Positions 1,588 through 22,691 of a stretch of DNA of 38,109 nucleotides are shown here, in pieces. The notes under the pieces are model-generated. The model saw only the letters and a program-made list of their open reading frames with translations, did not search any database and was not told the DNA's origin. A program made the position numbers and the translations under genes. Position 1 is the stretch's first letter. Each line of letters begins with the position of its first letter. The DNA is taken from NCBI GenBank assembly GCA_027592745.1, contig JAQCLG010000017.1, forward strand, positions 1 through 38,109, in the 5' to 3' direction. Source of the DNA: Pseudomonadota bacterium (lineage in GTDB: Bacteria; Pseudomonadota; Alphaproteobacteria; SP197).

Positions 1588-1627
1588 CGCTTCCCCCTGC
1601 CCGCCCATAACGGACCGATCTCGCGTG

Positions 1628-1656
1628 TTTACATGATCACGGGCCAGCCGTAATAG
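1628..1656 (+). promoter_or_regulatory. Candidate sigma-70 promoter for the first MttB gene
   Basis: TTTACA (1628-1633, 5 of 6 to the -35 consensus) and TAATAG (1651-1656) are separated by 17 bases. They lie in a locally AT-richer stretch between the divergent hutH and MttB starts. Transcription would begin near 1663, about 22 bases before the ATG at 1685, which follows a GGGGG ribosome-binding stretch at 1676-1680. This is a pattern match only. Confidence 0.4.
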
Positions 1657-1684
1657 CTCAGAGGCGACCAACCACGGGGGATGC

Positions 1685-3208
1685 ATGGCACGAGAAGGAC
1701 GGCGCGAACGGCGCAGCACGACGGACGCGGTCCACCAGTTGCCGTGGCGCGATATCGTCAACCGCTTCCCGCCCGTCGAACCGCTCTCGGCCGACGAACT
1801 GGAGTTCATCCAGGACCGCTCGCTCAAGGTACTCGAAGAGATCGGGATGGAGTTCCTCCATGACACCGCCCTCGACGTGCTCGACAAGGCCGGCGCCGAG
1901 GTCGACCGGGCCAGGCGCCATGTCCGCCTGCCCCGCGAGCTGGTGACGGCAAGCGTCGCCAAGGCGCCGGCGCAGTTCACGCTCCATGCCCGCAACCCTG
2001 CGCGCAACCGCATCCTGGGCGGCAACCACATCAACTTCTGTCCTGTGGCCAGCCCGCCCTTCTGCCACGACCTCGACGGCGGCCGGCGCGAGGGCAACTT
2101 CGAGGACTACTGCAAGTTCCTGAAGCTGGGGCAGAGCTTCAACATCCTGCACTTCTTCGGTGGCTATCCCGTCGAACCCACCGACCTTCCGGCCGCAAGC
2201 CGCCACCTGGATTGCCTGGCGGCCTTCGTGACGCTGACCGACCGCGCCTGGCACGCCTATTCGCTTGGCGCCGAGCGCATCGAGGACGCCCTGGAGATCG
2301 CCGCCATCGCGCGCGGCAAGAGCCGCGAGGCGCTCAAGGGCGAGGCCAGCATCGTCACCGTGGTCAACGCCAACTCGCCCCTGCGCTACGACACGCCCAT
2401 GCTCGACGGCCTGCTGAAGATGGCCGAGGGCGGCCAGGTGGTGATCCTGACGCCCTTCACCCTGTCGGGCGCCATGGCGCCGGCGACCGTGGCTGGCGCC
2501 CTGACCCAGCAGAACGCCGAGGCCCTGGCCGGCATCACGCTGGTGCAGCTCGTCAATCCCGGCTGCCCGGTGATCTATGGCGGCTTCACGAGCAACGTCG
2601 ACATGAAGACCGGTGCGCCCGCCTTCGGCACGCCGGAAGCCACGCGCGCGGCGATGATCGGCGGCCAGTTGGCGCGCCGCAACGGCGTGCCCTACCGCTC
2701 CAGCAACCCCAACGCCTCGACCTCGGCCGATGCCCAGGCAGCCTACGAGAGCCAGATGTCGCTGTGGGGCGCCACCATGGGCCATGCCAACATGATCCTG
2801 CACGCGGCGGGCTGGCTCGAGGGCGGCCTGGTCGCGAGTTTCGAGAAGTTCATCATCGACGTCGACACCCTGCAGATGATGGCCGAAGTGCTCACGCCCA
2901 TCGAGGTGACCGACGCGGCCATCGGCATCGAGGCGATGCGCGACGTCGGACCCGGCGGCCACTTCTTCGGCACGCAACATACGCTGGACCGCTACGAGAC
3001 GGCCTTCTACGAACCGATCGTTTCGGACTGGCGCAACTTCGAGGCCTGGGAGGCGGCCGGCGCACCCGACGCCCAGCGCCGCGCCAACACAATCTGTAAG
3101 AAGATGCTGGCGGCCTACCAGCCACCCGACCTGGACCCCGCCATCGCCGAACAGCTTGCCGACTTCGTAGCGCGCAGGAAGAGCGAGATCGGCGTTCGGG
3201 CGATGTAG
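1685..3208 (+). CDS. MttB-family (trimethylamine methyltransferase-like) protein, paralog 1
   Basis: This 507-aa protein belongs to the MttB/MtgB superfamily, whose characterised members move a methyl group from trimethylamine or a quaternary amine (glycine betaine, carnitine, proline betaine) to a corrinoid protein. Recognisable blocks are [69 protein letters not shown] and [19 protein letters not shown]. There is no in-frame TAG, so it is a non-pyrrolysine member. The ATG at 1685 has a G-rich site 5-9 bases upstream. Paralog 2 follows 105 bp downstream on the same strand and shares all these blocks, which suggests tandem duplication. No mttC-like corrinoid gene is nearby. The substrate cannot be told from sequence; a methylated amine is inferred from the neighbours. 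Confidence 0.9.
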
Positions 3209-3313: not shown

Positions 3314-4849
3314 ATGTCCCGCCGTACCACGTCCCGCCGTAGCGCCGCCGCCCGCGACAGCAAGCCGGTCCTGAACCAGTTGCCATGGCGGGAGGTGCGC
3401 AACCCCTTCCCGCCGCTCAATGTTCTCTCCGCCGACGAGCTTGAGCACATCCACAGCGCCTCGCTGACGATCCTGGAGGATCTCGGCATGGAGGTGCTCT
3501 CTGGCCCGGCGCGGGCGTACTACAAGGCCGCGGGCGCCGACGTCGACGAAAGCAGCCAGCGGGTGCGCATGGACCGTGCCATGGTCATGGAACATGTCGC
3601 CAGGGCGCCGGCGGAATTCACGCTGCACAGCCGCGTGGCAGAACGCGACGTCACCTTCGGCGGCAACCGGGTTCTGGTGACGCCGGTGAGCTCGACACCC
3701 AACTGCTCCGACCTCGACGGCGGGCGCCGTCCCGGTACGTTCAAGGATTTCGAGAACCTGGTGAAGATCGCCGCCAGCCTCAACTGCATCCATTTCTTTG
3801 CCGGCTACCCCACCGAGGCCATCGACCTGCCGGTGCCGACCCGGCACCTGGACTGCTACAAGGCCTTCATCACCCTGACCGACCGGGTCTGGCGCACCTA
3901 TGCCCTGGGTGCCGAGAGGAGCCGGGACGGCATCGTGATGAACCGCATCGCACGCGGCATCGGTGAAACCGAGATGATCGAGAAGCCGGGCCTGATCACG
4001 CTGATCAACACCAACTCGCCGCTCAAGCTCGACGAGCCGATGTGCCAGGGGCTGATCGAGATGGCGAGCCACGGCCAGGCCGTGGCGATCACGCCGTTCA
4101 CCCTGCTGGGTGCGATGGCGCCGACCACACTTGCGGGAGCGCTGGCCCAGCAGAACGCCGAGGCGCTGGCCGGGTTGGCGCTGATCCAGATGGTGCGGCC
4201 GGGCTGCCCCAGCGTCTATGGCGGTTTTACCAGCAACGTCGACATGAAGTCGGGCGCCCCGGCCTTCGGCACGCCCGAATACGTCAAGGCGACGCTTGCC
4301 GGCGGCCAGCTTGCGCGCAAGTACGCCATCCCCTTCCGCACCAGCAACGTCAACGCCTCCAACGCGGTCGATGCCCAGGGCGCCTATGAATCGGGCATGA
4401 GCCTGTGGGCGGCCTTCATGTCGGGCGCCAACTTCATCCACCATGGCGCGGGCTGGCTCGAGGGCGGCCTGGTGGCGAGCTTCGAGAAGATGATCGTGGA
4501 CGCCGAGATGCTGCAGGGCATGTTCGAGACCATGATGCCGATCGAGGTTTCCGACGCGGCCATCGGCATGGAGGCGATGCGCGACGTCGGTCCCGGCGGC
4601 CATTTCTTCGGCACGCAACACACGCTGGACCGCTACGAGACGGCGTTCTACGCACCCATGCTCTCGGACTGGCGCAACTACGAGACCTGGGTCGAGGCCG
4701 GCAGCCCGGACGCCGCGACGCGTGCCAACAGGCTGTGGAAGATGATCCTGGAGAACTACGAGGCACCCGAGCTCGACCCCGCCATCGTCGAGGAACTGGA
4801 CGCCTACATCTCCCGGCGCAAGGAAGAGGGCGGCGTCCACGACAACTGA
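3314..4849 (+). CDS. MttB-family (trimethylamine methyltransferase-like) protein, paralog 2
   Basis: This 511-aa protein has the same architecture as the upstream paralog. It has the blocks [69 protein letters not shown] and [19 protein letters not shown]. The start is well supported by AGAGGAGG at 3301-3308, five bases before the ATG. The first 25 residues are basic and low in complexity, and alignment with paralog 1 begins at NQLPWREVRNPFPPL. A weak promoter-like pair (TTGTTT at 3262, TAGGCT at 3286) could give it its own transcript. There is no internal amber codon. As a non-Pyl MttB member, its methyl acceptor and substrate are unknown; a betaine-type quaternary amine is the best guess. 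Confidence 0.9.
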   Translation: MSRRTTSRRSAAARDSKPVLNQLPWREVRNPFPPLNVLSADELEHIHSASLTILEDLGMEVLSGPARAYYKAAGADVDESSQRVRMDRAMVMEHVARAPAEFTLHSRVAERDVTFGGNRVLVTPVSSTPNCSDLDGGRRPGTFKDFENLVKIAASLNCIHFFAGYPTEAIDLPVPTRHLDCYKAFITLTDRVWRTYALGAERSRDGIVMNRIARGIGETEMIEKPGLITLINTNSPLKLDEPMCQGLIEMASHGQAVAITPFTLLGAMAPTTLAGALAQQNAEALAGLALIQMVRPGCPSVYGGFTSNVDMKSGAPAFGTPEYVKATLAGGQLARKYAIPFRTSNVNASNAVDAQGAYESGMSLWAAFMSGANFIHHGAGWLEGGLVASFEKMIVDAEMLQGMFETMMPIEVSDAAIGMEAMRDVGPGGHFFGTQHTLDRYETAFYAPMLSDWRNYETWVEAGSPDAATRANRLWKMILENYEAPELDPAIVEELDAYISRRKEEGGVHDN

Positions 4850-8220: not shown

Positions 8221-9165
8221 TTATTCGGCCGCCGCCGGATGGGGACAATGGCCGTCCTCGTAAAGCGGATGTACCGGGTGGTCCTTTGGGTGCAGCAGGA
8301 AACGGCGCACGATTTCGCGGTAGCCATGCCAGACAAAGCCGCCGTTGCCGGCTTCCCATTCCTGACGGCGCTCGCGGTAGTAGCCCGGCAGGTCGTACCA
8401 GGCCAGGCCAGGCACCGCATGGTGCACGGCGTGGAGGTTGTTGTTGAGGTAGAGCAGCGCCAGCGGCGGTTCCGCACGGTTGATCGCGATGCGGTGCTCG
8501 TAGCGTGCCGCCGGACGATGTTCGGCAAAGGAACGCAGCATGGTGAGCGATGCCCCCGGGTAGGCAAAGAGCAGGAGATAACTCCATAGCGGCATGCCGC
8601 ACACGCCCACGACCCAGGCTATGACCAGCGCCATGCCGATGGCGTGGCGCAGCCAGACCTGCAGGTGAGCGGTATCGCCCGAAAGCAGGCGGCGCCCCTC
8701 GCCGACGTAGAGACCCCAGGTCGCCATGGCCGGCCCGAGCAGGAGGCGGCCGAGGACGGTCATGTTGGCGCGCAGCAACAGGCGATGAACGGTGCCCATG
8801 CGGGCCCACCGATCGGGCGTGACATAGAAGCTCTCGGGATCGTCGACCGGGCAGGTCAGACGCCAGTCGAGGTGATGCGCCAGATGGCTGTCGCGGTAGA
8901 TGCCGTAGGGATACCACATCGCGAGGGTGGGAAAGACCAGCGCCTCGTTGATCCAGGGCGTGCGGGTGGGATGGCCGTGGAGCACCTCGTGCTGGAGGTG
9001 GCCGAACCAAGCAATGAGCCAGGCGCCCAGAGGCAAGAGGACGAACCATGGCAGCACGGCATGCCACCAGGTCAGGGCCAGCCAGCTACCGTAGATGAGC
9101 GCGGCCAGTCCCCAGGTTGGCAGCTCCCAGCGGCGCCATAGCGGCGCGTACGTCATCATCACCAT
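8221..9165 (-). CDS. Membrane-bound fatty acid desaturase
   Basis: This 314-aa integral membrane protein carries the three histidine boxes of the acyl-lipid desaturase/hydroxylase superfamily that bind a di-iron centre: HEVLHGH, HLAHH and HAVHH. Hydrophobic segments flank the first box and separate the second and third. It should introduce a double bond or hydroxyl group into a membrane acyl chain or similar lipid. I used the ATG at 9165 (Met-Val-Met-Met); two further ATGs follow, and an upstream GTG at 9294 would extend it into the regulatory region, so the start is uncertain. It is divergent from an XRE regulator, a classic regulator-target arrangement. Confidence 0.85.
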   Translation of the reverse strand: MVMMTYAPLWRRWELPTWGLAALIYGSWLALTWWHAVLPWFVLLPLGAWLIAWFGHLQHEVLHGHPTRTPWINEALVFPTLAMWYPYGIYRDSHLAHHLDWRLTCPVDDPESFYVTPDRWARMGTVHRLLLRANMTVLGRLLLGPAMATWGLYVGEGRRLLSGDTAHLQVWLRHAIGMALVIAWVVGVCGMPLWSYLLLFAYPGASLTMLRSFAEHRPAARYEHRIAINRAEPPLALLYLNNNLHAVHHAVPGLAWYDLPGYYRERRQEWEAGNGGFVWHGYREIVRRFLLHPKDHPVHPLYEDGHCPHPAAAE

Positions 9166-9255
9166 GGAGGGCGCTCGTTCCCGTGAAGTCTGTGACGATT
9201 CAACGACAGCCAAGCCCCTTGTGTCGTTGTGGGAATGCGCAGATTCTGCATCGAC

Positions 9256-9291
9256 TTGTAACGTTGCATCCCGTTTGGTGATATTTGTAAC
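9256..9291 (+). promoter_or_regulatory. Candidate promoter and operator repeats for the XRE gene
   Basis: Two exact TTGTAAC direct repeats lie at 9256-9262 and 9285-9291, 29 bp start to start. The first forms part of the near-palindrome TGTAACGTTGCA (9258-9269) and also supplies a -35-like TTGTAA. A -10-like TGATAT (9279-9284) follows at 17-base spacing. The second copy sits at the expected transcription start, about 20 bases before the XRE ATG. This stretch is distinctly AT-richer than its surroundings. Binding by the adjacent regulator is inferred, not shown. Confidence 0.45.
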
Positions 9292-9311
9292 CACCGCAAC
9301 GAGCCGAGCCG

Positions 9312-10166
9312 ATGACTGATTACGACCGCCGCACCACCGTGCGCCTGTTCCGCGAGCGCCTGCAGGCGCTGATCAACGACCTGGGCGACAGCCAGGCCGC
9401 CTTTGCGCGCCGCATCGGCATCGACCGTTCGACGCTCTCGCAGCTGCTCTCGGGCCATGACGACCGCCTGCCCCGCGCCGACACCGTGGCGGCAGTGGCC
9501 CAGACCTGCCAGGTCAGCGCCGACTGGCTGCTGGGCCTCTCCCAGGAGACCGCCGCCGAGGAAGCGATCGTGGGTCCGCCGCTGGAGATCGCGACCGGCG
9601 CCGCCGATCCGGCCAACGACCGCCTCAGGGCCTGGCATGCCGAGGCCGCCGGCTACAAGGTGCGCTATGCACCCACCACCCTGCCCGACCTGCTCAAGAC
9701 CGAGGCCGTCAACCGCTACGAGTTCGGCGACAGCCGCGGCCTGTCGCTGCAGGCGGCCGAACGCGGCGCCTTCGACCGGCTTGCCTATTCGCGTCGTCCG
9801 GAAAACGACGTCGAGATCGTCAGTTCGATCCAGAGCCTGGAGAGCTTTGCGCGCGGCGAAGGCATCTGGCGGGGGCTGGCGGCCGCGGAGCGGCGCGAAC
9901 AGATCGAACGGATCGCGCAGCTCACCGATGAACTCTACCCCACCCTGCGCTGGTTCCTGTTCGATGCCCGGGAGCGTTACGCACCGCCGGTCACCATCTT
10001 CGGGCCCTTGCGGGCCGTGCTTTATGCCGGCGAGGTCTATTTCGTCTTCAACAGCCGCGACCACATCCGGCTGCTGACCGAACATTTCGACTCCCTGATC
10101 CGCTCGGCGGTCATCCACCCGCCCGAGATCCCTAGCTTTGCGACAGGCCTGCTGCGCGGTCTGTAG
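9312..10166 (+). CDS. XRE-family transcriptional regulator
   Basis: The 284-aa protein begins with a lambda-repressor-like helix-turn-helix at roughly residues 10-72 (QAAFARRIGIDRSTLSQLLS, then the helix ending in SADWLLGLS). The rest (residues 90-284) is a larger soluble domain of unknown family, probably a ligand-sensing or oligomerisation module. It lies divergently from a fatty acid desaturase with two TTGTAAC repeats between them, so control of the desaturase and autoregulation is a reasonable inference. The ATG at 9312 follows GAGCCGAGCC, a weak ribosome-binding site. It is longer than simple phage-type XRE repressors. Confidence 0.85.
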   Translation: MTDYDRRTTVRLFRERLQALINDLGDSQAAFARRIGIDRSTLSQLLSGHDDRLPRADTVAAVAQTCQVSADWLLGLSQETAAEEAIVGPPLEIATGAADPANDRLRAWHAEAAGYKVRYAPTTLPDLLKTEAVNRYEFGDSRGLSLQAAERGAFDRLAYSRRPENDVEIVSSIQSLESFARGEGIWRGLAAAERREQIERIAQLTDELYPTLRWFLFDARERYAPPVTIFGPLRAVLYAGEVYFVFNSRDHIRLLTEHFDSLIRSAVIHPPEIPSFATGLLRGL

Positions 10167-10276
10167 TCCAGCACGAAGGCACAGCGTGCCGGACGACGTC
10201 CGCGGGCTTGGAACCCTTGCGGCATGTGCGACTTCGCGGAAAGCTGCGCTCGCCCCCAAATCCAGGAGAAACGACC

Positions 10277-10687
10277 ATGGCGGAACGTACCCAGAGCGGC
10301 GGCTGCCTGTGCGGCGCCGTGCGATACCATACCAGCGCGCGCCTGCGCGACGTGGTGGCCTGCCACTGCAGCCAGTGCCAGAAGACCCACGGCAATTTCG
10401 CCGCCTACACCGCGGTGGAAACCGCCGACCTCATGTTCGACGAGGAGCGAGGCCTGGCCTGGTTTGCCTCCTCGGACAAGGCCGCGCGCGGCTTCTGCCG
10501 CGAGTGCGGCGCCAGCCTCTTCTGGCACCCCTCCTTCGCCAGTTACACGGCAGTGGCCGCAGGCACCCTCGACCAGCCGACCGGCCTCCGGCTGGTGCGC
10601 CACATCTTCACCGCCGACAAGCCCGACTGGTACGAGATCGGCGACGGTCTGGAACAGGTGGCACAGAGCCAGTACGGCAATTCCTGA
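10277..10687 (+). CDS. GFA-family (CENP-V/GFA) protein
   Basis: This 136-aa protein has the zinc-binding cysteine pattern of the glutathione-dependent formaldehyde-activating enzyme fold: GGCLCGAVRY near residues 8-17, CHCSQCQK near 35-42 and CRECGASLFWHP near 80-91. The founding member, Gfa of Paracoccus, was proposed to speed S-hydroxymethylglutathione formation, but most family members are uncharacterised, so a formaldehyde role is only a possibility. The ATG at 10277 has AGGAG eight bases upstream. Its stop overlaps the next start (TGATG), so it is probably co-translated with the binding-protein-like gene. Confidence 0.85.
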   Translation: MAERTQSGGCLCGAVRYHTSARLRDVVACHCSQCQKTHGNFAAYTAVETADLMFDEERGLAWFASSDKAARGFCRECGASLFWHPSFASYTAVAAGTLDQPTGLRLVRHIFTADKPDWYEIGDGLEQVAQSQYGNS

Positions 10688-11505
10688 TGGCCCTGCTCGC
10701 CAGCCTGCCGATGTACGACCTCGAGCCGTTGCGCCCCGCCACCGATGCCTGGTGGTCCGGGGTCGCCGCGGCGCTGCGCCGCCAGGGCTTCGACGATGCG
10801 CCCGGAACCCTGATGCGCGAGGGCGGCTTCACCGACCGTTTCGTCCAGTGGGCAAGTCCCGACCTGCTGCTCTCCCAGACCTGCGGCTATCCCCTGACCC
10901 ATGCCTTCTCCGGGCACCTGCGACTGGTCGCGACGCCGGTCTACCGGGCCGAACACTGCTCCGGGGCACGCTACTGCAGTGTCGTGGTGGTGGGACAGGA
11001 TCATCCGGCGGTCACGATCGACGAGCTTCGGGGCGGCTATGTCGCCGTCAACGGCTTCGACTCCCAGTCCGGTTTCAACAGCCTGCGCGCCCTGGTCGCG
11101 CCGCTCGCCCACGGGGGGCGTTTCTTCGGCAGGGTCAGCGAAACCGGGCGCCATGCCGCCTCGCTGGCCATGGTCGCCGCGGGCGAGGCCGACGTCTGCG
11201 CGCTCGATTGCGTCTCCTTCGCCCTGTGGCGCCGGCACATGCCCGAGCTTCTGGAAGGCACCAGGGTGCTGACGGTGACCGCGCGGGCACCCTCCCTGCC
11301 CTATGTCACCCATGCCGGGCGCAGCGACGAGGCGATCGCGCGCCTCGCCGCCGCGCTCGTCGAGGCGGCAGCGGATCCCGCCCTGGCGGCGGCGCGCGAG
11401 ACCCTGCTGATCGCGGGTTTCGAAACCCTGCCGCGCACGGCCTACGACGAGATCGACGCCATGGAGGACCTCGCCATCGCCGCAGGTTACCCGCAGCTGG
11501 CCTGA
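10687..11505 (+). CDS. PhnD/SsuA/TauA-like substrate-binding domain protein without signal peptide
   Basis: The 272-aa protein looks like a type 2 periplasmic-binding-protein fold of the phosphonate-binding (PhnD-like) group. Features are the segment DLLLSQTCGYPLTH, the cleft-loop ELRGGYVAVNGFDSQSGFNSLRALV, and GEADVCALDCVSFALWRRH. The N-terminus (MALLASLPMYDLEPLRPATD) has no signal peptide or lipobox and no transporter genes are adjacent. It is therefore probably a cytosolic ligand-binding or enzyme-like relative rather than an ABC transporter component. The start ATG overlaps the GFA stop codon (TGATG at 10685-10689), indicating coupling. The ligand is unknown. Confidence 0.8.
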   Translation: MALLASLPMYDLEPLRPATDAWWSGVAAALRRQGFDDAPGTLMREGGFTDRFVQWASPDLLLSQTCGYPLTHAFSGHLRLVATPVYRAEHCSGARYCSVVVVGQDHPAVTIDELRGGYVAVNGFDSQSGFNSLRALVAPLAHGGRFFGRVSETGRHAASLAMVAAGEADVCALDCVSFALWRRHMPELLEGTRVLTVTARAPSLPYVTHAGRSDEAIARLAAALVEAAADPALAAARETLLIAGFETLPRTAYDEIDAMEDLAIAAGYPQLA

Positions 11506-12881: not shown

Positions 12882-13036
12882 GGCCGCTAGCATCCGCGAA
12901 TTGCCTCTGATCGTCCCTCGGGGCCGACGCAGCCTGCGCCGCGAGCGGACGCCGTTCTGGCGCATTGTATCGCGTGCGCGACATGTCCCATGATCGGCGT
13001 CGGCCATGTAAGGCCGGACCTTCCGTGGACATCCAC

Positions 13037-14143
13037 ATGCCGCACACACCCGAACTGCTTGAATCGATCTCCAGGCTCGACAGGGATCCGCACTCGCTGA
13101 GCGCGAACCACTACACCGATGACGGAATCATGAAGCAGGAATGGGAGCGCATCTTCGCCCAATCCTGGCTCTTTGCCGGATACTCCGACCAGTTGCGCCA
13201 ACCGGGCGACTACATCACCTGCATGGCCGGGAACGATCCGGTGGTGGTGGTGCGCGACGAGAGTGGCGTGTTGCGCGCGTTCTACAACATCTGCCGGCAT
13301 CGCGGGCATATCCTGATGAAGGAGGCCGCGGGCAACGTCCGGGGCTTCGTCTGCCCCTACCACGCCTGGGGCTACGTCACCGATGGCAGCCTGCGCAGTG
13401 CCCGTCACAGCGGCGATGTCGCGGGATTCGAGCCGGGAGCCTTCGGCCTGGTCGCGGTACGCGTCGAGATCTTCTGCGGCATGGTGTTCGTCTGCCTCGG
13501 CAGCGAGAGTCCTCCCGTGGCCGCCTGCTACCCAGGGCTGGAGGAGGAACTGCGGGCCTACGAGCCCGGCATCGACGACCTCCACTTCGTGTTCCGTCGG
13601 GAGGTCACGATCGAGGCCAACTGGAAGCTGGTGGTCGAGAACTACAACGAGAACTACCACACCCCCGTGGTACATCCGGCCTTGAGGAACGTGCTGACGA
13701 GCGACTACATCGTCACCCCGAGGGGCAGCTACATCAGCCACGAGGCCCGGGTGAATCCGGAAGCGACGGAGGGCTTCGACGCGACGACCATAGGCTACGA
13801 ACGCCACCTGAACTGGTGGCTGTGGCCGAACCTCTGCCTCATGTCGATCCCCCAAGGGGGCTTCCGCGTGCTCAACATCATGCCCGAAGGACCAGGCCGC
13901 ACGCGCGAGACCTACGACTTCTACCTGCCTTACAGCGAACCCAACGCGCAGCAGTGGCAGCAGATCCTCTTCGCCTGCGACACGGTCAACGTGGAGGACA
14001 TCGGGGTGTGCGAGGCCGTGCAGCGCGGCCAGGCGTCACGCAGCTTCGACCGGGGGCGCATGATGGTCGACCTCAAGGGACGGGACTGGAGCGAGCACGC
14101 CGTGGTGCACTTCCGCAATCTCGTGCTCGACGCCCTGGCCTGA
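13037..14143 (+). CDS. Rieske [2Fe-2S] aromatic-ring-hydroxylating-type oxygenase, alpha subunit
   Basis: The 368-aa protein has a Rieske centre, Cys86-x-His88 and Cys106-x2-His109 (CRHRG and CPYHAWG). It also has a mononuclear iron site in ENYNENYHTPVVHP, with His208 and His213. The bridging carboxylate between the centres is Glu205, not the usual Asp; carnitine monooxygenase CntA is a known example with Glu there. Length and context suggest N-demethylation or C-N cleavage of a quaternary amine rather than ring dihydroxylation. No reductase gene is adjacent. The start is uncertain: an ATG at 12983 is in frame, and neither has a strong ribosome-binding site. It converges on the DddP-like pair. 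Confidence 0.88.
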   Translation: MPHTPELLESISRLDRDPHSLSANHYTDDGIMKQEWERIFAQSWLFAGYSDQLRQPGDYITCMAGNDPVVVVRDESGVLRAFYNICRHRGHILMKEAAGNVRGFVCPYHAWGYVTDGSLRSARHSGDVAGFEPGAFGLVAVRVEIFCGMVFVCLGSESPPVAACYPGLEEELRAYEPGIDDLHFVFRREVTIEANWKLVVENYNENYHTPVVHPALRNVLTSDYIVTPRGSYISHEARVNPEATEGFDATTIGYERHLNWWLWPNLCLMSIPQGGFRVLNIMPEGPGRTRETYDFYLPYSEPNAQQWQQILFACDTVNVEDIGVCEAVQRGQASRSFDRGRMMVDLKGRDWSEHAVVHFRNLVLDALA

Positions 14144-14179: not shown

Positions 14180-15430
14180 TCAGTTGAGCAGAATGTGCTC
14201 GTAGGGGAAGGTCGAGAGACGGGCGGCACCGTTCTCGGTGATGAGCACCTGCTCCTCGAGCTTCACCCCCTCGACGCCGACTTCCGAGCCGATGTAGCTC
14301 TCGACGCAGACAGTCATGCCGACCTCCAGGGTACCCGAGGAGGAGGCTTCGGCGTTGTCGGTGAAGGTGATCGAGGGGTACTCGTCGACCATGCCGACAC
14401 CGTGCGCGGTGATACCGTATCGGCGGGCGGTGAACTCGTTGGGGATCTTCCAGGACTTCCTGGCCGCCTCGACGAAGCTCATGCCGGGCTGCAGCATCTC
14501 GATGTTGTACTGCACCTGCTCGTAGGCATAGGTGTAGATGCGCTTCTGCTCGTCGGTCGGCCGGCCGGGCTCGCAGAAATAGGTGCGCGAGATATCGGCG
14601 CAGTAGCCGAACGGCCCGACGAGGTCCGTATCGAAGCCGACCAGTTCACCGGCACGGATGACCCGGCTGGATGCCTCGCGGAACCAGGGGTTGGTGCGCC
14701 CGCCCGAGGACAGCAGGCGGGTCTCGATCCACTCGCCGCCCAGGGCGATGTTGACCTGGTGCAGGTGACTCCACAGCTCGACCTCGGTGACGCCGGGTCG
14801 CAGTTCCTCGCGCATCTTGGCCATGCCCGCCTCGCAGGCCGAGATCGCCTGGCACATGCAGGCGATCTCGTCGTCGGACTTGATGACGCGGGCGAGTTCG
14901 GTGACGCGGGTGCCGTTTTTGATTTCCCAGCCCAGCCTGGTGAGCTCGCGCACGCCTTCCATGTCGAGACGGTCGGCCGCAATGCGGCGGCTGCCTCCGG
15001 CATCGGCGCGCATGACGGCGTCGATGTCGGCGGCCCATTTCACGGCCTTCTCGTCGATGTTCTCGTCCGAGCCCATGTAGATGAAGCCGATCGCGGGACG
15101 GATCTCCCGGATCGTCTCGAGGTGGGCATAGAGGTGCATGGACTTCGGGTAGTCGAAGAGCACCGGCAGGCCTTCGACGGGGACCCAGACATAACGCAGG
15201 GGATTGTGCGTGAACCACACCTGCATGTTGCTGGAACCGGTCGCGTAGCGCTGGTTGATCGGGTCGTAGAGGATGATGCCGGCAAGGTCGAGACGCTTGA
15301 GCTGGGCCTGGATGCGGCCGAGGCGGTAGGCGCGCATCCGCTTCATGTCGATCTGGGGTTCGGCGTCGTGCTGGGACGCGCCCAGGGTGTTGCGGCCCAG
15401 ACGGATGCTTTCGAGATAGGCGTCGCTCAT
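14180..15430 (-). CDS. M24-family metalloenzyme, DddP-like (DMSP lyase-type active site), copy 1
   Basis: This 416-aa pita-bread-fold protein has the metal ligands Asp267, Asp269, Asp279, His343, Glu377 and Glu392. The spacings D-x-D, +10, +64 and the final 15 equal those of the DMSP lyase DddP (Asp295, Asp297, Asp307, His371, Glu406, Glu421). DddP's proposed catalytic base Asp377 and substrate-site Tyr366 correspond to Asp349 and Tyr338. The blocks GGEWIETRLLSSGGRTNPWF and FDTDLVGPFGYCADISRTY are also DddP-like. DddP cleaves dimethylsulfoniopropionate to acrylate and dimethyl sulfide. Creatinase or ectoine-hydrolase-like activity is the alternative. A second copy lies 38 bp upstream, and GGAGA precedes the ATG. 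Substrate identity is inference. Confidence 0.85.
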   Translation of the reverse strand: MSDAYLESIRLGRNTLGASQHDAEPQIDMKRMRAYRLGRIQAQLKRLDLAGIILYDPINQRYATGSSNMQVWFTHNPLRYVWVPVEGLPVLFDYPKSMHLYAHLETIREIRPAIGFIYMGSDENIDEKAVKWAADIDAVMRADAGGSRRIAADRLDMEGVRELTRLGWEIKNGTRVTELARVIKSDDEIACMCQAISACEAGMAKMREELRPGVTEVELWSHLHQVNIALGGEWIETRLLSSGGRTNPWFREASSRVIRAGELVGFDTDLVGPFGYCADISRTYFCEPGRPTDEQKRIYTYAYEQVQYNIEMLQPGMSFVEAARKSWKIPNEFTARRYGITAHGVGMVDEYPSITFTDNAEASSSGTLEVGMTVCVESYIGSEVGVEGVKLEEQVLITENGAARLSTFPYEHILLN

Positions 15431-15468
15431 GGCGTGATCGTCTCCCGCGCGGTCGCAGCCGCGCCGTT

Positions 15469-16722
15469 TCAGTTCAACAGGATGGTTTCGTAAGGATAGG
15501 TCGACAGGCGCTGGGGCGCGCCGTCGGTGATGAGGATCTGCTCCTCCAGCTTGATGCCCTCGATGCCGTCCTCGGCACCGATGTAGCTTTCGATACAGAC
15601 CGTCATGCCGGTCTCGAGCATGCCGCCGGTCGAACGGTCGGCATTGTCGGAGAATTGCACATGGGGCCATTCGTCGGCCAGGCCCACACCGTGGGCCATG
15701 CTGCCGTAGCGGCGGGCGACGAACTCGTTGGGCACGCGCCAGGACTTCTCGGCGATCTCGCGGAAGGTCTGGCCGGGGCGGAAGAGCTCGATGTTGGTCT
15801 GGATCTGGTCGTAGGCGTAGGTATAGAGCCGCTTCTGTTCGTCGCTGGGCCGACCGGGCGGACAGAACCAGGAGCGCGAGATGTCGGCGCAGTAGCCGAA
15901 GGGTCCGATCAGGTCGGTGTCGAAGGCGACGATCTCCCCGGCGCGGATAACGCGGTCGCTGGACTCGCGGAACCAGGGGTTGGTGCGCCCGCCCGAGGCG
16001 AGCAGCCGCGTCTCGATCCACTCCCCGCCCATGGCGATGTTGACCTGGTGGAGATGGGACCAGAGCTGGTTCTCGGTGATGCCCGCCCGCATCTCGCGCT
16101 GCATCTTCGCCATGCCGGCCTCGCAGACCGAAATCGAGGCGACCATGCAGGCGATCTCGTCGTCCGACTTGATGGCACGGGCCAGTTCCATCACCTCCTG
16201 GCCATTGTGGATTTCCCAGCCCAGGGCTTCCAGTTCGCGTGCGCCAGCGACGTCGAGATGGTCGGCGGCGATGCGCCGGTTGGCGCCGGCGCCGGATTCG
16301 CGCATGACCGCGTCGAGCTCGGCCGCCCACTGAGCAACCCGCTCGGCGATGCGGTCGCCGGCGCTGAAGAAGGTCCAGACGGTGGCCGGGCGGATGTCGC
16401 GGATCGTTTCCAGGTGCCTGGAGAGATGCAGGGCGCGGCCGTATTCGAAGAGCGTGCAGAGACCCTGCGCCGGAACCCAGCAGTAGCGGTGCTGGTTGTG
16501 CAGGATCCAGACCTGCATGTCGCTGGAGCCGTTGGCGTAACGCACGTTGATCGGATCGTAGAGCAGGATGCCGGCGAGATCGCGCTCCTGCAGCATCTGC
16601 TGCACACGGCCCAGCCGGTAGGCCCGCATCCGCCTCATGTCGATCTGGGGCTCGGCATCGTGCTGGAAGACGCCCGGCGTATTGCGCGCCAGACGCTGCG
16701 ATTCGAAGGAAGCTTCGTTCAT
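15469..16722 (-). CDS. M24-family metalloenzyme, DddP-like (DMSP lyase-type active site), copy 2
   Basis: The 417-aa protein is a clear tandem paralog of the downstream gene: both share HDAEPQIDM-(R/K)-RMRAYRLGR at the N-terminus and end in LLN. The DddP ligand set is complete: Asp268, Asp270, Asp280, His344, Glu378, Glu393, plus Tyr339 and Asp350. Its blocks GGEWIETRLLASGGRTNPWF and FDTDLIGPFGYCADISRSW are even closer to what I recall of roseobacter DddP than copy 1. Differences between the copies cluster in the N-terminal domain (residues 60-125), which helps form the substrate pocket in dimeric M24 enzymes, so the two may differ in substrate. The start at 16722 follows AGGG in the reverse strand. 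It may be co-transcribed with the zinc operon 110 bp upstream or have its own promoter. Confidence 0.85.
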   Translation of the reverse strand: MNEASFESQRLARNTPGVFQHDAEPQIDMRRMRAYRLGRVQQMLQERDLAGILLYDPINVRYANGSSDMQVWILHNQHRYCWVPAQGLCTLFEYGRALHLSRHLETIRDIRPATVWTFFSAGDRIAERVAQWAAELDAVMRESGAGANRRIAADHLDVAGARELEALGWEIHNGQEVMELARAIKSDDEIACMVASISVCEAGMAKMQREMRAGITENQLWSHLHQVNIAMGGEWIETRLLASGGRTNPWFRESSDRVIRAGEIVAFDTDLIGPFGYCADISRSWFCPPGRPSDEQKRLYTYAYDQIQTNIELFRPGQTFREIAEKSWRVPNEFVARRYGSMAHGVGLADEWPHVQFSDNADRSTGGMLETGMTVCIESYIGAEDGIEGIKLEEQILITDGAPQRLSTYPYETILLN

Positions 16723-16832: not shown

Positions 16833-17894
16833 TCAGAACCCCTGCAGCGCAGCCGAGAGCTGGCTTGCATTGTGGCCCATCATCGCGAGGTAGGTCGCAG
16901 CCGGACCTTCGGGTCCCGACAGCGAGTCGGAAAAGAGGGTGCCACCGACGACAACACCCGTGTCCTCGGCGATGCGCTCCAGGACCCGGTTGTCGCTGAT
17001 GTTCTCAACGAAGAGACCGGCGATGTGCTCACGCTCGATCTGGTCGATCAGGGCCGCGATCTCAGCAGCCGAGGGTTCGTCCGCCGTGTTCATGCCCTCG
17101 GGTGCCAGGAACACGATGCCGTAGGCGTGTCCGAAGTAGCCGAAGGCATCGTGGCTGGTGACGATGGTGCGGGCATCGGCGGGCAAGGCGTCCATGGCCT
17201 GGCGAACCGACCGGTCGAGCGCTTCGATCTGCGCCAGGTAGGCCTGCGCATTGGCTTCGTAGGTCGCCGCACCCTCCGGATCGGCAAGTGTCAGCGCCGC
17301 GGCGATATTGCGGACATAGGCGGCACCGTTGGCCAGGTCCTGCCAGGCGTGGGGATCGAAGGCACCGTGGCGGTGCTGCACCTCCTCATGCCCCTCTTCC
17401 CCGGCGTGCTCGTCGTGGTCCTCATGATCGTCGTGGTCCTCATGATCGTCATGATCGTCATGATCGTCATGATCCGCGTGCGCGTCGTCGTCGGCGTGCT
17501 CGTCGTGGCCTGCATCCTCGGCATGATGCTTCTCGTCCCCGCCGGGCAGGGGATCGATGCCTGCGGAGGCGACGACGATGGCGCCGTCGTAGCCGGAGGC
17601 TTCGACCAGACGGTCGATCCAGCCCTCGAAACCCAGGCCGTTGAGCACGACCAGGTCGGCATCGGCGAGCAGGCGTGCATCGGCCGGCGCAGGATCGAAG
17701 ACATGGACGTCCTCGCCGGGGCCGACCAGGGTCTCGACACGGACGCGCTCGCCGCCCACGACCGAGACCATGTCGCTCAGGATGCTGAAGCTGGCCACGA
17801 CATCGACAGGTTCATCGGCGCGAAGCGCAGCCGTCGCGGTCATCGCGACAGTCAGGGCGGCAGAGGCAAGGAGAACGCGGCGGGCAAGGGACAT
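16833..17894 (-). CDS. znuA: Zinc ABC transporter substrate-binding protein
   Basis: The 353-aa cluster-9 binding protein has a Sec signal peptide (residues 1-27, cleaved near AALRADE). A metal-binding His follows (GEDVHVFDPAPAD), then an Asp/His-rich loop at about residues 125-175 (repeated DDH/EDH units), then HAWQDLANG and TSHDAFGYFGHAYG. Such acidic His loops are typical of zinc-specific ZnuA and act in zinc capture in the periplasm. GGAG lies eight bases before the ATG. It follows znuB by 28 nt on the same strand, the last gene of the zur-znuCBA operon. The loop DNA is a tandem repeat (17415-17477) and may vary in length. Confidence 0.93.
   Translation of the reverse strand: MSLARRVLLASAALTVAMTATAALRADEPVDVVASFSILSDMVSVVGGERVRVETLVGPGEDVHVFDPAPADARLLADADLVVLNGLGFEGWIDRLVEASGYDGAIVVASAGIDPLPGGDEKHHAEDAGHDEHADDDAHADHDDHDDHDDHEDHDDHEDHDEHAGEEGHEEVQHRHGAFDPHAWQDLANGAAYVRNIAAALTLADPEGAATYEANAQAYLAQIEALDRSVRQAMDALPADARTIVTSHDAFGYFGHAYGIVFLAPEGMNTADEPSAAEIAALIDQIEREHIAGLFVENISDNRVLERIAEDTGVVVGGTLFSDSLSGPEGPAATYLAMMGHNASQLSAALQGF
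17415..17477. repeat. In-frame tandem repeat encoding the ZnuA His/Asp loop
   Basis: Two exact 18-bp units GTGGTCCTCATGATCGTC (17415-17432, 17433-17450) are followed by 9-bp units ATGATCGTC at 17451 and 17460 and a diverged ATGATCCGC at 17469. All units are multiples of three, so copy changes keep znuA in frame and only change the number of Asp/Glu-Asp/His triplets in the metal loop. Confidence 0.85.
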
Positions 17895-17922
17895 CTGGCA
17901 GGCTCCGTTCGTCAGGTTGTCG

Positions 17923-18792
17923 TCAGTTGCTGCGGTGCCAGGCGGGCGTGCGCAGGGCGCGCAGGCTGCCATGGGGGCCAAGCAGCATGGAAAACATCGA
18001 AGCAGCGCCCGCGACCAGGATGATCGCCGGGCCGCTGGGGACGTCGATATGGAAGGAAATCAGGAGACCGACCACCGAGGCCAGGACGGCAGTGGCCACC
18101 GCCGCGACAATCATGCCGCCGATGCCGCGAGCCCAGAAGCGGGCGGCCGTGGCCGGCAGGATCATCATGCCGACCGACATCAACGTGCCCAGGGCGTGAA
18201 ACCCGGCGACGAGATTGAGAACGACGAGGGCGAGGAAAAGATGGTGGACCAGCGCCCCCCGGCCGCCGACGGCACGCAGGAAGGCCGGATCGTAACTTTC
18301 CATGACCAGGGGACGGTAGATCAGCGCAAGGACGACGACAGTGAGCGTTGCCGAGCCGGCAAGCAGCAGCACGGCCCCGTTGCCCAGGGCAAGCACACTG
18401 CCGAAGAGGACATGGATAAGGTCGATCTTGCTGCCCGCGACCGAGACCAGCAGCACGCCCATGGCAAGCGCGACGAGATGGAAGGAGGCAAGGCTGGCGT
18501 CCTCGCGCAGAACGGTGAGTCGCGAAACGAGGGCCGACAGCGTGGCGATCACCAGGCCTGCGACAAGGCCGCCGATGGTCATGGCAAAGAGCGAAAGGCC
18601 GGCAAGCAGATAGGCAACCGCGATGCCCGGCAACACGCCGTGGGCAATGGCCTCGCCGGTGAGACTCATGCGGCGCAGCATGAGAAAGACGCCGACGGGC
18701 GCCGCGCCCAGAGAGACGGCGAGCGCACCGGCAAGGGCACGCGCCATGAAGGCGTAGTCGAGAAAAGGGGCGATCAGCCAGTCGAATATCAT
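17923..18792 (-). CDS. znuB: Zinc ABC transporter permease
   Basis: The 289-aa ABC-3 family permease has about eight membrane helices. Family signatures are the N-terminal LAVSLGAAPVGVFLMLRRMS-LTGEAIAHG segment, which couples to the ATPase, and the C-terminal ALGTLMSVGMMILPATAARF. It forms the inner-membrane channel for zinc delivered by ZnuA. Its ATG overlaps the stop of znuC by four bases (ATGA, 18789-18792), giving tight translational coupling. The metal assignment (zinc rather than manganese) rests on the linked Fur-family regulator and the His-rich ZnuA. Confidence 0.92.
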   Translation of the reverse strand: MIFDWLIAPFLDYAFMARALAGALAVSLGAAPVGVFLMLRRMSLTGEAIAHGVLPGIAVAYLLAGLSLFAMTIGGLVAGLVIATLSALVSRLTVLREDASLASFHLVALAMGVLLVSVAGSKIDLIHVLFGSVLALGNGAVLLLAGSATLTVVVLALIYRPLVMESYDPAFLRAVGGRGALVHHLFLALVVLNLVAGFHALGTLMSVGMMILPATAARFWARGIGGMIVAAVATAVLASVVGLLISFHIDVPSGPAIILVAGAASMFSMLLGPHGSLRALRTPAWHRSN

Positions 18793-19538
18793 GCCGCGAT
18801 CTCCGGGGCATCGCAGCGCGGTGCTGCTTCGTCCCAGGCCTCGCTGATGCTGCGGGCACGCAGCAGGTTGGCGCTTGTCATCACCTCGCCGGTTTCGCCC
18901 CAGGCGACGGGATCGCGGGCGAGCAGGAGGGTCCGGGGAAAGCGCGCACGCACGGTGTCGAGGTCGTGCATGACGGCAAGCACCGTGCGGCCCTCGCCAT
19001 GCCAGCGCGCGACCAGGGCGAGCAGGTCATGTTCGGTACGCTGGTCGAGCGCGGTGAAGGGCTCGTCGAGCAGGATCAGCGGGGCGTCCTGGACCAGCAG
19101 GCGGGCAAAAAGGGCACGCTGAAGCTGACCGCGCGAGAGGGTGCCTGCCTGGCGGCGGTCAAAACTTTCCAGGCCGACTTCGGCGAGAGCGCTCGCAACG
19201 CGTTTGCGTCCTGCCGCGCCCAGGGTGCCCAGGCTGCCGATGGCACCCCAGTTGCCCATGGCGACGAGATCGAAGACCGAGATCGGGAAGGAGCGATCGA
19301 GTTCCGACTGCTGGGGCAGATAGGCGGTATCGCGGCGGCGGGCATCGGGACGCCGGATGCGTCCGGAGAGCGGCTTCAGCTCTCCGACAATGCCCTTGAG
19401 CAGCGTCGACTTGCCCGCGCCGTTGGGACCGACGATCGCCAGCAGCGCACCGGCCGGAACCTCGCCGGAAAGATGATGCACGGCCGGGTGGTGATCGTAG
19501 CCCAGGGTAACGTCATCGAAGGCGATGACCGCGCTCAT
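18789..19538 (-). CDS. znuC: Zinc ABC transporter ATP-binding protein
   Basis: The 249-aa ATPase has Walker A GPNGAGKST (near residue 38), Q-loop LPQQSELDRSFP, signature LSRGQLQRA, Walker B LILLDEP and H-loop VMHDLDT. It powers zinc import through ZnuB. The ATG at 19538 overlaps the stop codon of a 47-aa upstream ORF (ATGA), and its own stop overlaps znuB. It belongs to the minus-strand zinc operon, downstream of zur and the Zur-box-like palindrome. Confidence 0.93.
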   Translation of the reverse strand: MSAVIAFDDVTLGYDHHPAVHHLSGEVPAGALLAIVGPNGAGKSTLLKGIVGELKPLSGRIRRPDARRRDTAYLPQQSELDRSFPISVFDLVAMGNWGAIGSLGTLGAAGRKRVASALAEVGLESFDRRQAGTLSRGQLQRALFARLLVQDAPLILLDEPFTALDQRTEHDLLALVARWHGEGRTVLAVMHDLDTVRARFPRTLLLARDPVAWGETGEVMTSANLLRARSISEAWDEAAPRCDAPEIAA

Positions 19539-19678
19539 GAAAGGCTCCACCAGACGGCCGCCCACAGCGGCACGAGGGCCGCAAGCGCGATGGCAAGGCG
19601 CAGCGCCGCACCCATGGTGAGCGCGGTACGACCCATCGGCGCCACAATGGCGGGGGCCTCGTGACGGTGAGCGCTCAC
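19535..19678 (-). CDS. Small single-pass membrane protein (47 aa) between zur and znuC
   Basis: A 47-codon ORF starts at the GTG at 19678, overlapping the zur stop (GTGA), and ends at a TGA overlapping the znuC ATG (ATGA). It fills the 136-bp gap between zur and znuC exactly. The product begins MSAHRHEAPAIVAP, with two histidines, then has one hydrophobic segment at about residues 19-47 (LTMGAALRLAIALAALVPLW, continuing with AAVWW), so it is a likely inner-membrane peptide. I know no named family. The double stop-start overlap inside an operon is strong evidence for translation. A role in zinc uptake, such as modulating the ZnuBC permease, is inferred from position only. Confidence 0.7.
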   Translation of the reverse strand: MSAHRHEAPAIVAPMGRTALTMGAALRLAIALAALVPLWAAVWWSLS

Positions 19679-20103
19679 GGGCACGCGCCTTCGCCGGGAC
19701 GGCAGGCGGCACAGAGCACGGAAAGTTCGATGGTCGCGTGATCGAGCTCGAACCCCTTGCGGCCGGCAAGGGCACCGAGCGCAGTGTTGACGTCCTCGTC
19801 GACGAACTCCTCGACGCTGCCGCAGTCATGGCAGATGGCAAAGGCCGTGCCTTCGCCGTGGCGGGGATGGGCGCAGGCGACGAAAGCGTTGAGTGATTCC
19901 AGCCGGTGCACAACACCGCGCTCGATCAGCTGGTTGAGCGCGCGATAGACCGTGGGCGGCGCGGCAATGCCCTGGGGGCGCAGGCGCTCCAGGATCTCAT
20001 ACGCCGTGGCGGGCCCATCGGCGCGGCCAAGGTCTTCAAGGACCAGCCGGGCGTTCCTGGGCAGGTCATCGAGGGAGTGATCGTGGCGGTGGCGTGCGGC
20101 CAT
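19675..20103 (-). CDS. zur: Fur-family zinc uptake regulator
   Basis: The 142-aa Fur-family protein has an N-terminal winged helix (GPATAYEILERLRPQGIAAP, then TVYRALNQLIERGVVHRLES). The metal domain has ACAHPRHG, a structural zinc pair CHDCGSVEEF, and CAACRPGEGAC at the end. With zinc bound it should repress zinc uptake genes. I chose the ATG at 20103, with CGAGG six bases upstream; an in-frame ATG at 20130 has no ribosome-binding site and abuts the operator. It heads the zur-smORF-znuC-znuB-znuA operon, so it probably represses itself along with the transporter. Fur-type iron or manganese specificity is unlikely given the linkage. Confidence 0.92.
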   Translation of the reverse strand: MAARHRHDHSLDDLPRNARLVLEDLGRADGPATAYEILERLRPQGIAAPPTVYRALNQLIERGVVHRLESLNAFVACAHPRHGEGTAFAICHDCGSVEEFVDEDVNTALGALAGRKGFELDHATIELSVLCAACRPGEGACP

Positions 20104-20135
20104 GGCGAACCTCGGGAGCGGGTTCGTCATATGTA

Positions 20136-20255: not shown

Positions 20256-22691
20256 TCAGGCGCGCAGGCGTTCGTTCTCGGGATCTAAGGGCGATTCGTC
20301 GATCACGGTGGCCTTGTACCAGTCGCCCAGGATCTGGATTTCCAGCTCCGTGCCGAGCTCCGAAACCTCCGGGGCGACCATGGCCATGGCGAGCGACTTG
20401 CCGATGCGGAAGCCGTAGCCGCCAGAGGTGGCGCGGCCGATCACCTTGCCGTCCTTGCGGATCGGGTTGGAGCCCAGGGCATCGGCATCGGTGACGCCAT
20501 GGACTTCCATGTTGACGAAGGTGTTGGCAAAGCCCCTCTCCTGCCACCGGATGAGACCCTCACGGCCCTTGAACTCGCCCTTGTTGAGATGAACGAAGCG
20601 CTGCAGGCCGCTCTCCAGGGCCGCGTACTCGATCGACATCTCCTGGCCGACCATGCGGTAGGACTTCTCGATGCGCATGGCCTCCATGGCGCGGATGCCG
20701 AAGGGCTTGATGCCCAGATCGGCGCCGGCCGCCATCACCGCATCGAAGATGTGGTTCTGGTATTCGATCGGGTGGTGCAGCTCGAACCCCAGCTCGCCGA
20801 CGAAGTTCATGCGGATGCACAGGCTGGGGGCGAGGCCGACATCGATCCACTTGCTGGTCAGCCACTTGAACGCGCCGTTGGAGAGGTCGCTGCGGGTGAT
20901 GCGCTGGAGCAATTCGCGCGACTTCGGACCGGCGATCACCAGCACGCCCATGGCATTGGTGATGTTCTGGAACTGCACCGAGCCATCCTTGGGCATGTGC
21001 TTCTTCAGCCAGTCGTGGTCGAGGCGCTGCAGCGCGCCGGCCGAGACGACATAGAAGCTGTCAGCGGCCTCGCGCTGGATGGTGAACTCCGAGTGGACGC
21101 CGCCCTTTTCGGTCAGAGCATGGACCAGGCCGACGCGGCCGATCGCCTTGGGCAGCTTGTTGGCGATCAGGCCGTCGAGGAAAGCCTCAGTGCCGGGACC
21201 GGAGATGCGGCACTTGGCGAAGGCCGACATGTCGAGCAAACCGACGTTCTCATGAACGTTCATCACCTCGTTGCCGACGTGCTCGAACCACTTCGAGCGG
21301 CGGAACGACCAGTCGTCCTCGGCGGCCACGCCCTCGGGTGCGAACCAGTTGGCACGTTCCCAACCGAACTTCTGGCCGAAGACCGCGCCCAGCGCCTTGA
21401 GCCGGTCGTAGCAGGGCGCGGTGCGCAGGGGCCGGGCGGCCGGGCGCTCCTCGTCGGGATAATGGATGACGAAGACGTTGGCGTAGGCTTCCTCGTTCTT
21501 CTCCACCAGATAGGACTTGGTGGCGTAGTCGCCGAAGCGGCGGGGATCGACGCCCAGCATGTCGACCGTGGGCTCACCCTCGACGATCCACTCGGCAAGC
21601 TGCCAGCCGGCGCCGCCCGCGGCCGTGATACCGAAGCTGTGGCCCTCGTTGAGCCAGAAGTTGGGCACGTCCCAGGCCGGGCCGATGATGGGGCTGCCGT
21701 CGGGCGTGTAGCAGATGGCGCCGTTGTAGACCTGCTTGACGCCGACCTCGCCGAAGGCGGGCACGCGGTTGATCGCAGCCTCGATGTGGGGCGAGAGGCG
21801 CTCCAGGTCTTCCTGGAAGAGCTCGTACTCCATGTCGTCCGGAGGACCGTCGACATAACAGGCCGGGGCGCCGACCTCGTAGGGGCCAAGGATCAGGCCG
21901 CCGCGCTCCTCGCGCATGTACCAGGAGCCGTCGCTCTCGCGCAGCACGCCCATCTCGGGCAGGCCCTGCTCCTTGCGCGCGACGATGTCGGGATGGGCAT
22001 CGGTCACGATGTACTGGTGCTCGACGGGGATCACGGGCACGTCGAGGCCAACCATGGCGCCGGTCTGGCGCGCAAAGCTGCCGGTGGCGCTGACGACGTG
22101 TTCGCAGGTGATGTCGCCCTTGTCGGTCTTGACCAGCCACTCGCCCGAGGGGGTGCGCTCGATGGCGGTGACGCATGTGTTGCGGTGGATTTCCGCACCG
22201 TGGTTGCGGGCTCCGGTGGCCAGGGCCTGAGTCAGGTCGGCGGGCTGGATGTAGCCATCCTCGGGATGCTGGATCGCGCCGACCAGGCCTTCGATGTTGC
22301 ACAGTGGCCAGATTTCCTTGACCTGCTGGGGCGTCAGGAAGTTGACCTGCACGCCCAGCGTCTGGGCGACGCCAGCGTACTGGTGGTACTCGTCCATGCG
22401 GTCGCGGTTCATGGCCAGGCGGATGTTGGAGACCTTCTTGAAGCCGACGTTCATGCCGGTCTCTTCCTGCAGCTCCTGATAGAAGCGCACGGAGTACTTG
22501 TGCACCTGGCCGACCGAATAGCTCATGTTGAAGAGCGGCAGCAGGCCTGCGGCATGCCAGGTGGAACCCGACGTCAGCTCCTTGCGCTCGAGCAGGACGA
22601 CGTCCGACCAGCCCTTCTTCGCCAGGTGATAGAGCGTACCGACGCCGACGACGCCGCCACCGATGACCACGACCCGCGCATGACTCTTCAT
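20256..22691 (-). CDS. Dimethylglycine/sarcosine dehydrogenase family protein (FAD + GcvT domains)
   Basis: The 811-aa two-part flavoprotein has an N-terminal DAO domain with VVVIGGGVVGVGTLYHLAKK for FAD binding. It also has the TSGSTWHAAGL segment, whose His carries covalent FAD in mammalian dimethylglycine and sarcosine dehydrogenases. From about residue 430 it continues into an aminomethyltransferase (GcvT-like) domain that binds tetrahydrofolate (FVGELGFELHHP, KPFGIRAMEAMRIEK, GRATSGGYGFRIGKS). It oxidatively demethylates dimethylglycine or sarcosine and passes the one-carbon unit to tetrahydrofolate. The start has GGGGAGAG upstream. It is a natural partner for the MttB, Rieske and SoxG genes here. 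Which N-methylglycine it prefers cannot be told. Confidence 0.9.
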   Translation of the reverse strand: MKSHARVVVIGGGVVGVGTLYHLAKKGWSDVVLLERKELTSGSTWHAAGLLPLFNMSYSVGQVHKYSVRFYQELQEETGMNVGFKKVSNIRLAMNRDRMDEYHQYAGVAQTLGVQVNFLTPQQVKEIWPLCNIEGLVGAIQHPEDGYIQPADLTQALATGARNHGAEIHRNTCVTAIERTPSGEWLVKTDKGDITCEHVVSATGSFARQTGAMVGLDVPVIPVEHQYIVTDAHPDIVARKEQGLPEMGVLRESDGSWYMREERGGLILGPYEVGAPACYVDGPPDDMEYELFQEDLERLSPHIEAAINRVPAFGEVGVKQVYNGAICYTPDGSPIIGPAWDVPNFWLNEGHSFGITAAGGAGWQLAEWIVEGEPTVDMLGVDPRRFGDYATKSYLVEKNEEAYANVFVIHYPDEERPAARPLRTAPCYDRLKALGAVFGQKFGWERANWFAPEGVAAEDDWSFRRSKWFEHVGNEVMNVHENVGLLDMSAFAKCRISGPGTEAFLDGLIANKLPKAIGRVGLVHALTEKGGVHSEFTIQREAADSFYVVSAGALQRLDHDWLKKHMPKDGSVQFQNITNAMGVLVIAGPKSRELLQRITRSDLSNGAFKWLTSKWIDVGLAPSLCIRMNFVGELGFELHHPIEYQNHIFDAVMAAGADLGIKPFGIRAMEAMRIEKSYRMVGQEMSIEYAALESGLQRFVHLNKGEFKGREGLIRWQERGFANTFVNMEVHGVTDADALGSNPIRKDGKVIGRATSGGYGFRIGKSLAMAMVAPEVSELGTELEIQILGDWYKATVIDESPLDPENERLRA

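Follow-up and report, generated by a model that had tools for sequence, protein, structure and literature searches.

Two adjacent and intact genes for DddP-like enzymes of the M24 family, M24-A and M24-B (A and B below), were found in the window, that is, the whole stretch of 38,109 nucleotides analyzed here. The window is one of the 263 contigs that make up a 3.85-Mb genome. The closest named relatives of this genome are 'Rhodospirillaceae/Alphaproteobacteria' MAGs, and it contains five DddP-like paralogues altogether. The features of the locus are collected in Table 1.

Table 1. Tandem DddP-like genes and neighbouring features, with positions in the window
Feature	Position	Strand	Remarks
M24-A (P0001), DddP-like enzyme, 417 aa	15469..16722	minus	First tandem gene
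M24-A ligand block D268..E393	about 15544-15921	minus	
M24-B, DddP-like enzyme, 416 aa	14180..15430	minus	Second tandem gene, downstream of A; intergenic gap 38 nt
Rieske oxygenase alpha subunit, distantly GbcA-related (161 bits, cut-off 670)	12965..14143	plus	Convergent with M24-B
Metal ABC transporter (AztC/ZnuA, ZnuB, ZnuC) and Fur/Zur regulator	16833..20130	minus	On the strand of the tandem, immediately upstream of it
FAD oxidoreductase-GcvT fusion (dimethylglycine/sarcosine dehydrogenase-like)	20256..22690, start approximate	minus	
MttB superfamily methyltransferase (PF06253)	1685..3208	plus	No in-frame TAG
MttB superfamily methyltransferase (PF06253)	3314..4849	plus	
MttB superfamily methyltransferase (PF06253)	32718..34292	plus	
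Fatty-acid-desaturase-family protein	8221..9294	minus	Conserved module; homologues adjoin M24 genes in Rhizobiales clusters
HTH/XRE regulator	9312..10166	plus	Conserved module
PhnD-like (PF12974) protein	10690..11505, start approximate	plus	Conserved module

An earlier sequence-only reading had considered the neighbourhood to fit the catabolism of onium osmolytes. This was borne out by the three MttB genes, the FAD-GcvT demethylase gene and the GbcA-like Rieske enzyme. A Pyl stop was absent from all three mttB genes. In relatives, the FAD-GcvT gene was again found close to the tandem or to homologues of the tandem. The Rieske gene was rejected as a conserved partner, as no Rieske match was found beside B in the other tandem genomes reaching that far. 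The block from 8221 to 11505, with fatty acid desaturase, XRE, GFA-family and PhnD-like genes, was conserved in the family, and homologues of its desaturase, XRE and PhnD-like genes adjoin betaine-type genes in rhizobia. A histidine ammonia-lyase above the curated cut-off (58-1878, minus strand) adjoins two of the mttB genes. The zinc-binding protein (AztC/ZnuA-like, 16833-17981, minus strand) carries a long His/Asp-rich repeat (HDDHDDHDDHEDHDDHEDHDEH). The protein encoded at 35283-36131 on the minus strand weakly matches a halogenase family, HalD (PF23169, 44 bits); HalD-like genes also occur near DddP-like genes at loci L155 and L286.

Active site, fold and family placement

The metal ligands of A are D268-x-D270, D280 (+10), H344 (+64), E378 (+34) and E393 (+15), compared to D295, D297, D307, H371, E406 (+35) and E421 (+15) in RlDddP (4rzy). 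The pattern of B is identical to that of A, and all six DddP metal ligands (three Asp, one His and two Glu) are present in both proteins. This confirmed the ligand spacing proposed in the sequence-only reading (D-x-D, +10 D, +64 H and E-15-E), including the distance from His to the first Glu, 34 residues against 35 in DddP, as the sole difference. The proposed counterparts of DddP Tyr366 and Asp377 were likewise found in both proteins, in A as Y339 and D350. Y366A and D377N are the two DddP mutants solved with an acrylate-type ligand, according to the titles of the PDB entries. The counterpart of W95 in A is W72, and W277 and F278 are also retained. In DddP the onium group is bound by the aromatic pair (W95 and Y366), and the Asp (D377) takes up the alpha proton. 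In place of the His pair of M24 peptidases (His243 and His361 of APP, with the correspondence taken from the alignment and PMC5395565), A has F251 and D350, a replacement shared with DddP. In a comparison of 219 DddP-like sequences, the catalytic residues, among them W95, Y366, D377 and the Phe replacing the peptidase His, were invariant in 23 of 23 tandem-clade proteins, with one alignment row truncated before the last Glu. Among 105 other superfamily members W95 was lost in 44 and D377 in 29, so the pattern is no trivial property of DddP-like proteins.

A and B are predicted to have the DddP fold, and no solved structure comes closer than DddP, whether judged by sequence or by model. In phmmer searches against the PDB, DddP was matched by the two proteins with E-values of about 1e-95 to 1e-91 and the next M24 family with about 1e-14 to 1e-18, a gap which places the likeness to DddP beyond chance. 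The AlphaFold model of A (pLDDT 91.9) superposed on the DddP crystal structures with Z 49 and an rmsd of 1.6 Å over 401 residues. Among other M24 structures, the best prolidase gave Z 35, and creatinase and the ectoine hydrolase DoeA gave Z 34. Proteins of this kind would usually be labelled Xaa-Pro peptidase or creatinase, as the sequence-only reading remarked; its view of them as DddP-like was supported. Identity with DoeA was rejected from the models TIGR02993 and NF038259 (27-37 bits, cut-offs 575-613) and the structural score, creatinase from E-values of about 1e-5 to 1e-7 and its Z-score, both far from those of DddP, and prolidase or Xaa-Pro peptidase from the replaced His pair and the lower Z-score. 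DoeA and creatinase share the pita-bread fold of M24 with the window proteins at 18% identity, whereas the window proteins have the full di-metal site and the DddP-type Phe and Asp. DddU, considered as a possible M24 relative, was discarded, as it is placed among the cupins (PMC10686828).

Membership of the DddP clade, which the sequence-only reading had proposed, was not upheld. On the NCBI DddP equivalog model NF043017, A and B scored 396 and 388 bits, below the cut-off of 600, and the cut-off was reached by no gene in the 17 genomes searched (the genome of the window and relatives). The match of the tandem proteins begins only at profile position 50, so the N-terminal stretch of DddP is not recognized in A and B. 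The phylogeny put forward as a check was calculated with IQ-TREE from 64 sequences. The tandem clade (support 100/99) fell outside a supported group of 40 sequences (98/90) which holds all DddP-type sequences of the tree; the group of RlDddP and Oceanimonas sequences was itself supported (98/97). Forcing the tandem proteins into one clade with the solved and verified-type DddPs cost 131 log-likelihood units (AU test, p = 7e-9). Compared to DddP, an M24B DMSP lyase (RlDddP 4rzy/4s00/4s01, RdDddP 4b28), the tandem proteins are alike in predicted fold, the six ligands, W95, F278, Y366 and D377, at 38-40% identity. They differ by conserved changes such as A103Y, D88G and P128E, by forming their own clade, by their betaine-type gene context and by the lack of AcuI in their genomes. 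The DddP-like M24 proteins of Mesorhizobium and Aminobacter (e.g. L245 and L236) have about 52% identity and the same catalytic set, but occur as a single copy per locus and fall on the DddP side of the tree; L236 scored 472 bits on the NCBI model (cut-off 600). In a genome from the genus of Oceanimonas baumannii, three DddP-like genes were found, two of which (L312 and L320) belong to the DddP clade, with L318 (428 bits) outside it.

Duplication and divergence of the two copies

A and B could be aligned end to end with 68% identity. Residues 1-28 were likewise 68% identical, the N-domains 60% and the catalytic domains 72%. The suggestion that the two proteins have differing N-terminal domains was therefore rejected as overstated. 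In contrast, a tandem duplication with divergence of the copies was supported. About ten genomes, mostly MAGs, from a single family of marine Alphaproteobacteria share the pair, and relatives with a single copy were also found (G005, G004 and G007). In the wide tree the A+B clade does not include the single copy of G005, and the simplest account is therefore that the gene was duplicated within the family and the copies then diverged. Thirteen tandem-type genomes are referred to below. Eleven of them have both copies or a contig that is cut, while G004 and G007 each have a single copy of the A type. Nineteen differences between A and B are fixed. Some of these adjoin catalytic residues (L74T, Q77P, A349V and W352Y), but the number within five residues of catalytic sites, six of the 19, was not clearly above chance.

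Betaine-type gene context and the DMSP question

Genes for MttB were found no more than 5 kb from the DddP-like gene in 6 of 10 tandem loci, in 10 of 18 loci of a mainly Rhizobiales group and in 7 of 17 loci of the non-Roseobacter members of the DddP clade, compared to none of 10 Roseobacter-type dddP loci. The chance expectation, calculated from the MttB density in the genome of the window, was about 4%. As the loci are related by descent, these counts show recurrence across groups and are not independent trials. FAD-GcvT demethylase genes, like mttB, recur beside DddP-like genes, and in several family members mttB is divergent from A. The gene order in Mesorhizobium and Aminobacter is MttB, RidA, DMGDH-like, M24, PhnD-like, desaturase, XRE, DUF1989 and homocysteine S-methyltransferase, and six of these families (MttB, DMGDH-like, M24, PhnD-like, desaturase and XRE) are common to the Rhizobiales cluster and the window. 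At a gammaproteobacterial locus (L271), sarcosine-oxidase-like genes (with a BLAST match to DMGDH) are followed by a DddP homologue, then MttB and finally a regulator that combines AraC and DJ-1 domains, as GbdR does.

PF06253 proteins have been described as the glycine-betaine demethylase subunit MtgB of aerobic marine bacteria (PNAS 2025, PMC12478193). In that MtgBCDE system MtgB belongs to the same family as the three mttB products of the window, and the genes for the later demethylations are co-located, as they are in the window. A keyword search for 'peptidase' in the text of that paper returned no M24 or DddP-like component. Literature searches for a link between M24 proteins and MttB gave nothing specific.

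DmdA was found above the cut-off in all 13 tandem-type genomes, in the genome of the window and in G001 barely so, and the tandem bacteria therefore probably meet DMSP. The acrylate reductase AcuI was found in none of the 13, compared to 9 of 12 genomes with a true dddP (Fisher test, p = 1e-4, without correction for kinship). The proposal in the sequence-only reading of DMSP or a related onium osmolyte as the substrate thus fared unevenly: the neighbourhood fits onium osmolytes, and the occurrence of DmdA speaks for the role of a DMSP lyase, the lack of AcuI and the position outside the DddP clade against it. The missing AcuI counts against any acrylate-forming reaction, and a simple beta-alanine betaine lyase is therefore poorly supported too. 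In G006 a DddP-like paralogue (L184, G006:C1:2403243-2405542), 43% identical to A, lies convergent to dmdA at a distance of 38 nt and could be the paralogue that is truly linked to DMSP in this family.

Predicted function and implications for DddP surveys

The explanation tentatively preferred here, with a probability somewhat short of even, is that A and B are diverged copies of a predicted subfamily of onium-carboxylate lyases with the mechanism of DddP, linked to betaine catabolism; DMSP is a possible substrate, but not the favoured one. The carboxylate of the substrate would be bound to the di-metal centre, as in DddP, with the onium head gripped by W72 and Y339, and D350 would act as the base in a beta-elimination. 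The substrate would be an osmolyte of the onium-carboxylate type, with an N-onium (betaine) compound as the likeliest candidate, and would feed the neighbouring demethylation route of MttB and the dimethylglycine-dehydrogenase-like enzyme. The duplication and the 19 fixed differences suggest that the copies may differ in substrate or form a mixed dimer. Because the two enzymes belong to a separate branch tied to betaine-degrading genes, they probably act on a compound related to DMSP, and a simple classification of them as DMS-producing would be unwarranted. The betaine-type reading is weakened by the distance of 9 kb between B and the nearest mttB in the window, by the zinc-transport genes flanking the tandem, by the abundance of MttB in these genomes (12 matches in that of the window), by the kinship of the loci, by the reliance on genomes that are mostly MAGs and by the probable availability of DMSP. 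Furthermore, conserved residues are no proof of lyase over hydrolase chemistry.

As first proposed, one or both proteins could be functional DMSP or DMSOP lyases despite their separate branch. This is unlikely, even though all known catalytic residues are retained, activity is known for divergent DddPs, among them that of a scallop symbiont and O. doudoroffii DddP2 (PMC10989825), DddP cleaves DMSOP as well (PMC10686828) and DMSP is probably met. Besides the tree, the curated cut-off and the lack of AcuI, the location of dmdA on another contig in the genome of the window speaks against it, as do relatives nearer to DddP which sit in the betaine-type clusters of Mesorhizobium and Aminobacter. 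A creatinase-, DoeA- or prolidase-type hydrolase, which would cleave a C-N bond of an N-methylated compound and pass the product to the dimethylglycine-dehydrogenase-like enzyme, is still less probable. Such an enzyme would fit the M24 fold, the nearby FAD-GcvT demethylase, the presence in some clusters of genes for DUF1989 and amidase-type proteins, and the weak resemblance in sequence to creatinase and DoeA, but the peptidase histidines are replaced as in DddP, which itself has no Val-Pro activity (PMC5395565), the DoeA model gave 28 bits against a cut-off of 613, and the creatinase and DoeA structures are clearly more distant than DddP. Least probable is a sub-functionalized obligate heterodimer, in which A and B would be one enzyme and each N-domain would serve the active-site tunnel of the partner. 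In DddP the tunnel of one chain is built from the N-domain of its partner (PMC4108388), and A and B are adjacent and retained together in about ten genomes; however, the relatives with a single copy indicate that a homodimer is viable.

DddP is counted as the most abundant DMSP lyase gene of marine bacteria. Published surveys used HMM cut-offs of 1e-30 or 1e-50 followed by curation in trees (PMC8520302, PMC7494906), with a few sequences tested. All 229 DddP-like proteins collected here passed both cut-offs with an HMM built from ten DddP-clade sequences, the tandem pair at 1e-129 to 1e-131. DddP-like genes were found in 78 of 385 sampled alphaproteobacterial-class genomes, and in only 12 did they exceed the curated DddP cut-off. 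An unusual expansion was observed at L143 (G100:C7:627000-646999), where five DddP-like genes lie within 20 kb beside mttB, with a sixth at 504 kb. The contig of L286, labelled Oceanobacillus sp. HTM 045, carries a DddP-clade gene (63% identical to RlDddP) and, about 2 kb away, a second DddP-like gene, which suggests transfer or contamination.

A wider proposal, which is doubtful at present, is that a distinct family with DddP chemistry splits N-onium (betaine-type) osmolytes, is widespread in marine and soil Proteobacteria and is wired into cobalamin-dependent betaine demethylation, the DMSP lyase DddP perhaps being one specialized branch of it. If so, loose DddP thresholds in marine surveys would count many enzymes that do not act on DMSP. 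If the unassigned branches act on betaines, loosely curated surveys would overestimate the DMS potential, and it would become testable whether a climate-relevant enzyme arose from betaine metabolism.
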